From Hydrogenophaga sp. BPS33 (GTDB lineage Bacteria; Pseudomonadota; Gammaproteobacteria; Burkholderiales; Burkholderiaceae_C), in the NCBI RefSeq assembly GCF_009859475.1, contig NZ_CP044549.1:3596001-3660000 (forward strand): a stretch of DNA of 64,000 nucleotides, in the 5' to 3' direction. The first letter of the stretch is position 1; each line of letters starts with the position of its first letter. The translations under genes were made by a program, and so were the position numbers. Of the stretch, positions 16,452-44,968 are shown piece by piece. The notes beneath the pieces were generated by a model. That model was not told the origin of the DNA. It did not search any database and worked only from the letters and a program-made list of their open reading frames with translations.

Positions 16452-17783
16452 TCAAAGGTAGAGGCTCTTGATCGCCGCCGCTATCGGGACTTTTCCTTGC
16501 GCCAGCGACAGGCGGTGCTTGTCCAGGCGCTTGAGATCGTAAAGGTAGTTGACCATCAGCCCATAGGACTGTTTCTGTCCCTTGGGCGAGGGGTCGGCGG
16601 CCCAGTTCAGGCGCTCCACGCGCGCGCCGTTGCCCAGGTGGAAACGGGCCACGGGATCGCGCGGCCGGCCCTCGTCCATCTCCTCCCCGAGGTAGCGCGC
16701 GGCCCAACCCATGAGGGCGCGGCGCTCGGGCGCGCTCTCCGGCCATTCCTGCGTGCGCTCCCAGGCTTTGAGCAGGTCGGCCGGTGCATTCTTCGAGAGC
16801 CAGGCGCGCAGGCCGGGAATGGGCGACAGGGTGACGAAGGTCCGCAAGCGCGGGAATTCCGCCTTGAGCGTGTCCACCACGTGCTTGATGAGCGAGTCGC
16901 CAAAGCTCACACCCTTGAGGCCGGCCTGGGTGCTGCTGATCGAATAGAAGACCGCCGTGGTCGCCTTGTCCAGGTCGGCTGGCGCGGCGGTTTCGTCCAG
17001 CAGCGGCGTGATGCTGGTGGCGATCTCGTTCATGAGAGCGACCTCCACGAAGATCAGCGGCTCGCCCGGCAGGCGCGGGTGGAAGAAACCGTAGCAGCGG
17101 CGGTCGCTGTCGAGCCGGTTCTTCACGTCGGCCCAGCTGCGGATGTCGTGCACCGCTTCGTACTGGATGAGCTTTTCCACCAGCGAAGCCGGCGAGTCCC
17201 AGCTGATGCGGCGCAGCTCCAGAAAGCCCACGTCGAACCAGGTGGAGAACATGTACTCCATCTCCACGTCGAGCGCGGCCAGGCGTTTGTCGCTGCGCAG
17301 GTACGGTTGCAATTCGGCGCGCATGTCCACCAGGAAGCGCACGCCATCCGGGTTGGCGCTGAAGCGCTGCAGCACACGCCGCCGAGGCGATACCGTGGCG
17401 CGCCGGTAGCGCACCTCGGCCGCGGCTTCGTCGGGCGTGCCCACGGCCGCGGCGAACTGTTCTTGCGCCTTCTTCGCCCGATCCGGATCGGCCACGAAAT
17501 GCTCGCTCAGGAGCAGCCACAGGTCGCGCCGGTGCGGCAGGCTGGCCGAGGCATAGCCGTCCATCATCGCCTGCGCGCGGCGCCCGCCTTCCACCTCGCT
17601 CACCACCGGGTCGACGATGGCCTGCAGTTGCTTGAGCGCCTGGCGCAGCATGCGCGGCGACATCGCCTCCTCCTCGTGCCGCAGCGTGGCCTTGAGCCGC
17701 TCGCGGGTGGTCCGGGGCGTGTGGGCCTTGGTGCCGGGACGCAGGAGGGAGACGCCCTGGGCGAGCCAATCGGGAGGTGTCAT
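16452..17783 (-). CDS. mcd: malonyl-CoA decarboxylase
   Basis: The 443-residue protein matches the malonyl-CoA decarboxylase family (helical N-terminal domain, then an acetyltransferase-like catalytic domain with PLIFVEVALMNEIATSI, FYSISSTQAGLKGVSFG and FVTLSPIPGL; a His/Ser pair is expected in the C-terminal part, FHLGNGA). It converts malonyl-CoA to acetyl-CoA and CO2. GGGAGGTGTC at the 5' side belongs to its own coding start, and the upstream region is now the end of an inserted element (see 17787-18058). Removing the element restores a four-base overlap with gntR. Confidence 0.93.
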   Translation of the reverse strand: MTPPDWLAQGVSLLRPGTKAHTPRTTRERLKATLRHEEEAMSPRMLRQALKQLQAIVDPVVSEVEGGRRAQAMMDGYASASLPHRRDLWLLLSEHFVADPDRAKKAQEQFAAAVGTPDEAAAEVRYRRATVSPRRRVLQRFSANPDGVRFLVDMRAELQPYLRSDKRLAALDVEMEYMFSTWFDVGFLELRRISWDSPASLVEKLIQYEAVHDIRSWADVKNRLDSDRRCYGFFHPRLPGEPLIFVEVALMNEIATSITPLLDETAAPADLDKATTAVFYSISSTQAGLKGVSFGDSLIKHVVDTLKAEFPRLRTFVTLSPIPGLRAWLSKNAPADLLKAWERTQEWPESAPERRALMGWAARYLGEEMDEGRPRDPVARFHLGNGARVERLNWAADPSPKGQKQSYGLMVNYLYDLKRLDKHRLSLAQGKVPIAAAIKSLYL

Positions 17784-17786
17784 GGT

Positions 17787-18058
17787 CTAGGGCCTGTTAA
17801 CACTATTTTTCCAAGTGCGAAGGGGTTGAAAACAGCGCCAATCGAGGCGCGCGACGACGGCCAGACTGGGCGTCTGGCCTAGGAGTGCAACGAAGAGTGG
17901 CGCTGTTTTCAACCCCTTCCCTTCGGGTTGCGGCCCAAAAGGCCATGCGCCGCGTTGCGAAGCCTCGCCGGGCCACCGGCCCGTCTGCGTTTCGCGCCTT
18001 GCGCATGGCCTTTTGGTTCCGCAACGCATCTTGGAAAAATAGTGTTAATAGGCCCTAG
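17787..18058. mobile_element. MITE-like element with CTAG target duplication
   Basis: The element proper is 264 bp (17791-18054), with 25-bp terminal inverted repeats differing at one base. The left end starts GGCCTGTTAACACTATTTTT; the right end is its complement. Both sides carry CTAG (17787-17790 and 18055-18058). The interior is a nest of exact dyads: a 22-bp pair (17819-17840 and 17898-17919), GGCCAGAC/GTCTGGCC (17859-17879), and a 16-bp pair (17935-17950 and 18001-18016). No gene fits inside. CTAG duplications and such ends suit mobilisation by an IS5-type transposase, but the parent element is not in this window. Confidence 0.88.
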
Positions 18059-18716
18059 GTTCCGTCAATCGAGAGGTCTGGCTGCGCGCCAGTTCGCGCA
18101 GCGCCACGCGCTGGCGCGTGAGGTGCGTGCGCATGGCGGCTTCGGCACCTTCGGCATCGTGCGCCTTGAGCGCCGCGAACACCGCCATGTGCTCGGACAG
18201 GCTTTGGTCCAGCCGCCCGGGTGCGTGCAGCTGTTGCAGGCGCGCCAGCTTGACGATCTTGCGCAGATCGCCGATCACTTGCGCCAGCCAGCGGTTGTTT
18301 GCCAGGGTGATGATGGCCTCGTGGATGGCGTAGTTCGCATCGAAGTAGTCCTGGATGCGCCGTGCCTGCGCGCTCTCGTTGAGCCGGTCGTGCAGTTGTT
18401 GCAGGGCCGCGAGGTCGGCATCGGTGGCGTTGCGCGCCGCTTCGAACGCACAGCGCCCTTCCAGCAAGGCGATGACGGGGAAGATTTCATCCAGATCGCG
18501 CTCCGTCACCTGGCGCACGAAACAGCCCCGCCGTGGCTCGTGCCGCACCAGGCCTTCGGCGCTCAGCACCTTGAGCGCCTCGCGCAAGGGCGTGCGAGAA
18601 ATCGACAGCTGCGCGCACAGGGCATGCTCGTCCACGAAGCTGCCCGGCGCCAGCTCGCCCGCGAAGATGCGTTCGCGCAGCTTCGTGGCCACTTCGTCGT
18701 GCAGGGAGTTGAGCAT
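18045..18716 (-). CDS. GntR-family (FadR/VanR-like) regulator of the malonate genes
   Basis: A 223-residue regulator with an N-terminal winged helix (LGERIF-type LRERIFAGELAPGSFVDEHAL, SRTPLREALKVLSAEGLV) and an all-helical FCD ligand domain carrying metal-type residues (DANYAIHEAIITLANN, SEHMAVFAAL). It is the probable malonate sensor, like MatR. The last two residues and the TAA stop come from the inserted MITE-like element; without it the protein would end with RP and a TGA overlapping the mcd ATG. ATG at 18716 is used; the frame continues upstream through the operator palindrome, which argues against a longer protein. Confidence 0.9.
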   Translation of the reverse strand: MLNSLHDEVATKLRERIFAGELAPGSFVDEHALCAQLSISRTPLREALKVLSAEGLVRHEPRRGCFVRQVTERDLDEIFPVIALLEGRCAFEAARNATDADLAALQQLHDRLNESAQARRIQDYFDANYAIHEAIITLANNRWLAQVIGDLRKIVKLARLQQLHAPGRLDQSLSEHMAVFAALKAHDAEGAEAAMRTHLTRQRVALRELARSQTSRLTEPRAY

Positions 18717-18740
18717 GCGAATGTTTCTGTAATCACACGT

Positions 18741-18754
18741 AATTACGCGTAATT
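18741..18754. promoter_or_regulatory. perfect 14-bp palindrome upstream of gntR
   Basis: AATTACGCGTAATT is fully self-complementary and is preceded by another CGTAATT-like half (direct repeats of CGTAATT). It lies 25 bases before the gntR start. FadR/VanR-type GntR proteins often bind such dyads to autoregulate, so this is the likely operator of the malonate operon. Confidence 0.6.
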
Positions 18755-18776
18755 CTACAAACAGACCATGCCGCAC

Positions 18777-19525
18777 CCACCCGGACTTACCCGGATGGGC
18801 GCAGCTCTTCGACCGCTGGCAGCGTCCGTTTGGGGCCGAACCGGCCTGTGCTCATCAGACGCCGCAAATCGCCGCCCCGTTGCCCCTCGACTTCCCGGCC
18901 GCAATTCGACCACCTCGCTATTTGAACCGAGTGGTCAGAAATAGGATGGACTATCGGTCGCATCAAAACCAGCGATTGGTGGGAATTGTCTGAAATACGA
19001 CTTTGGACCCAGGCGATTCCAGTCCACATTTGCCGGGAGACCTCAATAGCCCCATTCCGTTCGTTAATGGAATGCAAAAAATCTCACAATGGCGCCATGA
19101 AAGGCGGCTAATGAAGGGTAAATACCCGCATATTTGCTTCACCATGGAAACGCCTCGCCGATAGCATCTGTATCGCAAGGAAAGTCTCCCACCTCTCATG
19201 GGTCACTCGAAAAAATCCTTTAAAAACAAGGATAAATTGATCGTAGGGAAATATTGAATGTCCGTGTAAGGAATGTTTGACAAGAGAACCATTGGATTCA
19301 TTGTTGAATTGGAATTGAGGAGGATAAGTTATTAAAAACACACTTGGAATGCTGCTGGCTTTCCCAGCCACACGAGGTCCAAGGACCTAATTTGATTGCA
19401 CGATGGGCAGCACAAAACAACCGAATAGACGGCCCAATGGATTCAGCAAAACCTCAATGACCGACAAAATTTAGACCCAAAGTTTTCTATTTTCAACAAC
19501 CGCTTGTTTCACCAAGGAGTCCATC
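18777..19525. other. long gene-free, less GC-rich stretch before the Tad locus
   Basis: About 750 bases without a convincing gene. From about 18,900 onward the composition is clearly more AT-rich than the flanks. Short frames exist on the minus strand but have no recognisable domains or Shine-Dalgarno. Small dyads are present: TGGCT-ttccc-AGCCA near 19,355-19,370 and GGTCC-AA-GGACC at 19376-19387. It ends with AAGGAG before flp. It probably holds the promoter and a long leader of the pilus operon; decayed sequence is also possible. Confidence 0.5.
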
Positions 19526-44137: not shown

Positions 44138-44968
44138 ATGGCCAACACCTTTGCCGCCTCGGTACCGTCCCGCTTCTGGGCCGACCTGACCAGCGAGGCC
44201 TTCTCGCGGCTGGACCGCCCGAGCGTGATCGCCGTGTTGCCCGTGGGCGCGATCGAACAGCACGGCCCGCACCTGCCGATGTCGGTCGACACGGCCACCG
44301 TCAATGCGATGGTGGCGGCCACGCTGGCGCACCTGGGCGCCGACCTGCCGGTGCTGTTCCTGCCCACGCAACCCATCGGCAAGAGCAACGAGCATTCGCG
44401 CTACCCGGGCACCTTGACCTTGTCGGCCCAGACGCTGATCACGCTCTGGAGCGAGATCGGCGCCTGCGTGGCCGCGGCCGGCGTGCGCAAGCTGGTGCTG
44501 TTCAACAGCCACGGCGGGCAGGAATCGGTCATGGACATCGTCGCGCGCGATCTGCGCGAACGCTTCGGCATGCTCGTGGTGTGCGTGAACTGGTACCAGT
44601 TGGGACTGCCCGATGGGCTGATTGGCGATGACGAGATGCGCCACGGTATCCACGCCGGTGAACTGGAGAGTTCGATCCTGCTCGAGATCCACCCCGATCT
44701 GGTGCACATGGAGCGGGCCGGAAATTTCGCCAGCACCGACCGGGCGCTGAGCGCAGGGTCGCGTTACCTGTCTTACGTGGAGGGCAAGGCCCGCGTGGCC
44801 TGGCAGACGCAGGACCTGAACCCGCAAGGCGCCTGTGGCAACGCCGCGCTGGCCACCGCGCAAAAAGGGCGCGCCACGCTGGACCACGTGGGTGAACAGT
44901 TCGCCCTGGTGCTGGAAGACATCCACCGCGTGCCACTCGAATCGCTGGACAGCGCAACGGCGTGGTAG
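44138..44968 (+). CDS. creatininase-family amidohydrolase
   Basis: The 276-residue protein has metal-binding segments IEQHGPHLPMSVDT, NSHGG and HAGELESS, which are the creatininase/MftE/FAPy deformylase hallmarks. The family includes creatininase and 3-dehydro-scyllo-inosose hydrolase, as well as formylaminopyrimidine deformylases. It opens or hydrolyses cyclic amides. It overlaps the next gene by seven bases. Confidence 0.9.
   Translation: MANTFAASVPSRFWADLTSEAFSRLDRPSVIAVLPVGAIEQHGPHLPMSVDTATVNAMVAATLAHLGADLPVLFLPTQPIGKSNEHSRYPGTLTLSAQTLITLWSEIGACVAAAGVRKLVLFNSHGGQESVMDIVARDLRERFGMLVVCVNWYQLGLPDGLIGDDEMRHGIHAGELESSILLEIHPDLVHMERAGNFASTDRALSAGSRYLSYVEGKARVAWQTQDLNPQGACGNAALATAQKGRATLDHVGEQFALVLEDIHRVPLESLDSATAW

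Follow-up and report, generated by a model that had tools for sequence, protein, structure and literature searches.

A palindromic miniature element with a conserved folded core at a gntR-mcd junction of Hydrogenophaga and its likely IS5-family mover

The window analysed here, a stretch of 64,000 nucleotides from Hydrogenophaga sp. BPS33, holds between a GntR-type regulator gene and the malonyl-CoA decarboxylase gene mcd a palindromic element that is probably a non-autonomous miniature inverted-repeat element (MITE), moved by an IS5-family transposase into a CTAG at the end of gntR and carrying a conserved folded core that is borne by different insertion sequence (IS) ends. The usual view of MITEs is that they are dead IS remnants, functional only at their ends. 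Here it is the interior that is conserved throughout the class, with ends that vary, and, should this reading be true, the core would have its own function, either for the element or for the host.

Architecture of the element

Two further hairpins are nested between terminal inverted arms of 29 nt that are 97% complementary with CTAG counted in (Table 1). An earlier sequence-only reading of this DNA had recognized an element with terminal inverted repeats and nested hairpins, and both features stand, while its length of 264 bp has to be corrected to 266 bp; the conserved double core described below was absent from it. When positions 17784-18060 are folded as DNA, they reach -112.2 kcal/mol, compared with -52.3 +/- 4.1 kcal/mol in 200 shuffles (z -14.6), none of which folds as low as the real sequence. 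The frame listed within the element has 80 aa, and the element has the short size, the terminal inverted repeats, the dispersed copies and the target-site duplication of a MITE.

A canonical promoter or terminator in the element is unsupported, as positions 17600-18800 contain no promoter-like site and one terminator-like site, against 1.0 +/- 1.2 in shuffles. No Rfam family was matched at gathering score, either in window positions 17600-18250 or in 20 core-bearing loci; the best match under lax conditions, mir-337 (E 0.075), lies far under its gathering score. Integron attC sites and REP sequences, which we took to be conceivable candidates, were set aside. Elsewhere in the window, two weak matches to the core may be due to chance, one at 818-892 (E 0.00022 with model R1 and 0.013 with model R2) and one at 44821-44852, in which the tip is missing (E 0.0066 with R1 and 0.006 with R2).

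Table 1. Features of the element and the adjoining genes in window coordinates. The 68 copies are those with both ends kept from 85 loci, the others being partial, at contig edges or duplicates; the window copy (L001) is in the alignments of both model R1 and model R2, so that these core scores are not independent evidence.
Feature	Position	Strand	Basis
mcd (malonyl-CoA decarboxylase)	16452..17783	-	Pfam MCD and MCD_N
Left inverted arm, CTAG included	17787..17815	+	97% complementary to right arm
Left TA target duplication, inside CTAG	17788..17789	.	TA before left end in 56/68 copies
266-bp MITE	17790..18055	.	commonest length among copies (48/68); six full own-genome copies
Hairpin 1, long stem, variable but co-changing arms	17819..17919	.	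inverted pair and copy alignment
Core copy 1, within hairpin 1	17836..17901	+	R1 73.8 bits, R2 57.6 bits
Central CCTTCGG mini-hairpin	17920..17926	.	pairs 131-137 and 132-136 C-G in 30/30 copies
Hairpin 2	17935..18016	.	inverted pair and 30-copy alignment
Core copy 2, in inverse orientation to copy 1	17944..18008	-	R1 72 bits, R2 71.6 bits
Right inverted arm, CTAG included	18030..18058	-	pairs with left arm
gntR (FCD-type GntR regulator; start as mechanically listed)	18045..18776	-	Pfam GntR and FCD
Right TA target duplication	18056..18057	.	TA after right end in 46/68 copies

Insertion at the gntR-mcd junction

The final codons of gntR and its stop fall in the right end of the element, so that GntR now ends EPRAY-TAA, just as had been read from the sequence, with the mcd start 261 nt past that stop; the genes after gntR and mcd are of TctC type, enoyl-CoA hydratase type and AMP-binding type. 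The empty site that was reconstructed for this junction has identical letters under a TA or a CTAG duplication. Matches to mcd were obtained in 45 of 67 genus genomes, own included, and the junction was compared in 29 of the 44 non-own genomes. Among the matches listed, gntR and mcd overlap by ATGA in 21 of these 29 relatives, and none of the 29 has a terminal repeat near the junction; the closest GntR among the relatives listed (L123, 95% identity) ends EMKP-TGA over the mcd ATG. Since relatives keep the ATGA overlap and none carries the element there, the pre-insertion junction proposed in the sequence-only reading is supported, and the element-free ATGA sites that it had called for do exist.

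The remaining eight relatives have gaps of 14-61 nt instead of the overlap, which would fit an ancestral spacer in this lineage, with the element entering a gap that already existed. However, once the element and one TA are removed, the gntR TGA and the mcd ATG overlap without any residual bases, and the closest GntR relative has the overlap, which makes an older spacer highly improbable. Under the favoured reading of a MITE inserted into the end of gntR, the CTAG target would have spanned the last gntR codons and lain four nucleotides ahead of the ATGA shared with mcd. The insertion would have ended the translational coupling of the two genes, and may have decoupled the regulator from the enzyme and changed operon dosage. 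The locus is a clean case of an insertion that removes a stop-start overlap between a regulator gene and the neighbouring enzyme gene.

The TAA stop of GntR requires an A at a position of the terminal repeat where this base is a minority variant: the window copy carries A in both arms, as is the case for 10 of the 68 copies, whereas 49 carry C in both. In the gntR frame (minus strand), no stop interrupts the element in 43 of 64 copies, and a copy with the commoner C would be expected to lengthen GntR by 88 codons, stopping 3 nt before the mcd ATG.

Target site and distribution of the copies

The target of the element reads YTAR. In the window, CTAG does stand on both sides, as had been noted earlier, while the duplicated part proved to be TA only: some copies combine CTAG at one end with CTAA or TTAG at the opposite end, because of which CTAG was rejected as the target duplication and the element is taken as 266 bp plus a TA duplication.

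The question raised by the sequence-only reading, whether the element recurs elsewhere, can be answered affirmatively. The six full copies in its own genome share 92-100% identity, and end remnants occur there at several further sites. Within the genus, the element was found in 27 of 67 genomes (own included, E<=1e-40). In the wider family (E<=1e-25), 34 of 399 genomes carry it, the own genome among them, and these represent 24 of 141 genera. The copies from other genera (n=29, taken from the 33 non-own genomes with a family-level match, some of the remaining matches being partial) go down to 72% identity and yet measure 266 bp in 22 cases, 265 bp in six and 264 bp in one; in 20 of the 29 the outer 14 nt of both ends are in full agreement. 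The whole element gave no match in a plasmid search, nor did its exact 21-nt end in a scan of viral contigs.

Several observations concern individual copies and their neighbourhood. Seven own-genome loci (L007, L008, L009, L011, L012, L013 and L216) are decayed or truncated family ends. Three family copies in one genome (L193, L197 and L200 in G069) measure 295-297 bp rather than 266 bp, and another locus (L204, G071:C81) holds a version of about 168 bp that appears to retain only one hairpin. Around 16 copies (L001-L006 and 10 others), long frames with high GC3 often end or start 0-30 nt from the element, and some neighbouring frames seem to take a TAG stop from the target and the first G of the element.

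A likely IS5-family mover

The letters of the element ends pointed to an insertion sequence carried by a Paraburkholderia plasmid. Matches to its transposase, for which a 126-aa piece served as query, are present in 15 of 67 genus genomes, some of them partial. Nine loci in relatives have both IS ends; they measure 823-827 bp, carry the ends GGGCSTGTTAACAC (with one mismatched end in L106) and are flanked by YTA and TAG in 9/9. Two of the nine are named IS5 family by NCBIfam, and the ends of the MITE match those of the IS over a short stretch of 14-19 nt. On the basis of these ends and flanks, an IS5-family element of about 824 bp is the likely mover of the MITE.

In the own genome, the same 126-aa query gave no match at E<=1e-10, and matching ends around 10 DDE_Tnp_1 loci were not found except for one site with four mismatches; a partner transposase within the genome was therefore found neither at that threshold nor beside the DDE_Tnp_1 loci. 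The IS5-type transposase with matching ends that had been anticipated from the sequence thus exists in relatives, but was not detected in the own genome at E<=1e-10. An IS5-family transposase would have moved the MITE into its CTAG target, and this movement would have needed an enzyme that is no longer found in the genome. Present mobility is doubtful, because the own genome is without a detected transposase for the ends of the element.

A conserved core with different ends

Hairpins 1 and 2 contain inverted copies of one core of about 60 nt that consists of AGGCGC, a variable stem-loop and GCAACG. With a covariance model built from the window family alone, the core was found in 41 of 67 genus genomes (E<=0.001). 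The other 26 have none, 15 of them among the 44 genomes with a completeness of 90% or more and a contamination of 5% or less, and the lack of a core match in 26 genomes of the same genus argues against an artefact of composition. A second model that included other core loci, with up to 14 candidates scored per genome, identified the core in 92 of 370 class genomes and 74 of 272 genera (E<=1e-4). The same core is found inside palindromic elements with unrelated terminal repeats.

Around the core, 107 of 112 loci outside the window family have an outer inverted repeat scoring at least 12 and five have none. These repeats fall into 33 groups, of which 12 comprise more than one locus, although the threshold is loose, as 35 of 200 random window positions also reach it, and some groups may be due to chance. 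At a score of at least 16, 91 of 108 core loci have an outer repeat (L276 omitted and three loci of intermediate length skipped), compared with 0 of 200 random window positions. A link to an IS could be drawn for only two terminal-repeat types, and for the second of them the match is weak: the end type TAAGAACGTGTTTACGATCTC, found on a core-bearing element of a Comamonas plasmid, resembles the end beside a Pandoraea IS5-family transposase (23 nt, 91.3%, E 2). The transposases of the Pandoraea IS and of the first IS align over just 38 residues with 32% identity, and both ISs score best with the same NCBIfam model, transpos_IS5_3. The core itself is apparently not derived from these ISs, since only one of 15 loci searched, the Comamonas MITE L391, carries it; the nine two-ended loci of the first IS lack the core. 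Plasmid searches with the ends of four other terminal-repeat types gave short matches only, and for a further end type the matches, in plasmids of Variovorax and Cupriavidus, were partial.

The main rival to the favoured folded-core reading is that of an ordinary IS5-derived MITE, in which the core found elsewhere reflects the old homology of one lineage whose ends have drifted, with no multiple capture of IS ends. This would be in line with the 8 of 28 loci from elsewhere in the class in which a second, inverted core (E<=1e-4) follows the window layout at a distance of about 105 nt, with the CCTTCGGG-like centre that two-core class elements often have, with the ends of L362, which are of the window-copy type, and with the shared transpos_IS5_3 assignment of both end-linked ISs. 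However, the 33 outer-repeat groups, 12 of which are multi-locus, even if some arose by chance at this threshold, and the short alignment of the two transposases speak against it, and we regard a single drifting lineage as rather unlikely. In the favoured reading, the core in its form as a folded strand would be the maintained part and would be carried by different IS ends, travelling with whatever ends can be moved. Whether this extends to a class-wide mobile entity, defined by a folded core that is recognized as a single strand and repeatedly acquires different IS ends so that it outlives any transposase, is a tentative proposal that we hold possible rather than probable.

In addition to the six copies, the own genome contains seven core matches, six of which lie in palindromes while one (L308) does not. 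These six core-bearing palindromes (L302-L307) have several other terminal repeats, as delimited by a first repeat picking in which several picks are plainly wrong, and the listing of the class search holds a further own-genome match at C1:2199095. A different group is formed by one-core elements of about 105 or 165 bp with TGA on both sides (L291, L277, L324, L359 and similar loci), which occur in the genomes G067, G086, G025, G035 and G008. Read upstream from the flanking TGA, the frame that this stop closes stays open over 120 nt in 35 of 38 rows (37 loci, one counted twice), compared with 28 and 13 for the other frames, which suggests that the one-core elements may insert at stop codons.

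Co-change of the paired arms

Across 30 aligned copies, one from each of 30 genomes, 96.8% of cells pair, and both sides have changed in 69 of 102 pairs. Double-changed cells number 383, compared with 86.9 in shuffles and at most 75 when the partners are slid. Private states in the genus, counted in 64 of the 68 copies with four longer ones left out, comprise 34 Watson-Crick double changes, 13 other double changes (three of them G-T) and 96 single ones. G-T cells amount to 237 in the genus, of which 174 lie in three pairs with a consensus wobble, leaving 63 compared with 64 A-C cells; in the family set the numbers are 39 G-T and 30 A-C with four consensus-wobble pairs set aside. Single mismatches are strand-symmetric without strand preference, and as the plus strand folds lower in 17 of 30 copies, neither strand folds better. 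Co-change in situ rests on one orthologous locus, an insertion common to two species that shows nine differences. Two compensated pairs account for four of these, and one of the two pairs could stem from a G-T state via two single changes.

Because double changes abound, mismatches are strand-symmetric and neither strand folds better, these patterns are read as arm correction at the DNA level: the arms probably co-change mainly by a process such as template switching during replication. Correction by template switching makes both arms of a hairpin stem change together, as described for RNA genes in the part of the account consulted (PMC8794818), whereas here it is proposed for a mobile element. 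The co-changing arms offer many natural copies for measuring the upkeep of perfect palindromes in bacterial DNA.

Conservation along the element is uneven. Over all columns, entropy is 0.722 at unpaired and 0.603 at paired positions, so that unpaired positions are not better conserved, and divergence within the genus is 12.8% and 5.4%, respectively. The inner loops show an entropy of 0.39-0.50, compared with 0.92-0.95 in the stem of hairpin 1, and judging from the aligned copies these conserved loops would need a further constraint beyond arm correction.

Selection of the element as RNA, with stem pairing kept for the processing, stability or termination of transcripts as proposed for ERIC and Correia/NEMIS, would agree with the long helices with compensated pairs, the near-constant length, the inner loops that are better conserved than the stem of hairpin 1 and the frequent position of copies next to gene ends. 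On the other hand, G-U intermediates are no commoner than A-C mismatches when the element copies alone are compared, no Rfam family was matched at gathering score, and neither strand folds better, although equal use of both orientations could also give such symmetry. Taken together, RNA selection appears unlikely, and correction of the arms at the DNA level is preferred.

Comparison with known small repeats

Among the best matches of a literature search, no title was found that describes the element family or its core, with BRE and QMITE2 as possible overlaps. The following comparisons draw on excerpts of the cited accounts. The element can be compared with MITEAba12 of the Moraxellaceae, which is transposase-free, 111-114 bp long, has ends like those of a known IS and occurs in several species of one family, with one insertion that breaks a gene (PMC6382973). 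Both are small, without transposase, near-constant in length and present in multiple species with IS-like ends, but MITEAba12 differs in its 9-bp duplications and ISAba12-type ends, and no conserved hairpin core common to other MITEs was found in the excerpted account (PMC6382973). ERIC, Correia/NEMIS, RUP and CIR are small repeats with TA at their termini; CIR RNAs consist of two arms and a linker, and for RUP, indirect evidence has led to the proposal that an IS whose ends resemble its own moves it (PMC2229807). As described there, each of these has its own ends, whereas the core of the window element occurs with many sets of ends (PMC2229807).

QMITE2 of Coxiella is a palindrome whose stem is conserved and whose tip diverges more in other bacteria, and relatives of it have been reported in another class (PMC5896051). 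By description only, it resembles the window element as a palindrome with a conserved stem and divergent tip, and it differs in its duplications of 7-11 nt (PMC5896051). BRE is a GC-rich repeat of about 90 bp found in Comamonadaceae and Bordetella in up to 29 copies and differs in that some of its loci hold tandem repeats (PMC3110155). Compared by description only, BRE may be related to the core of the window element (PMC3110155).
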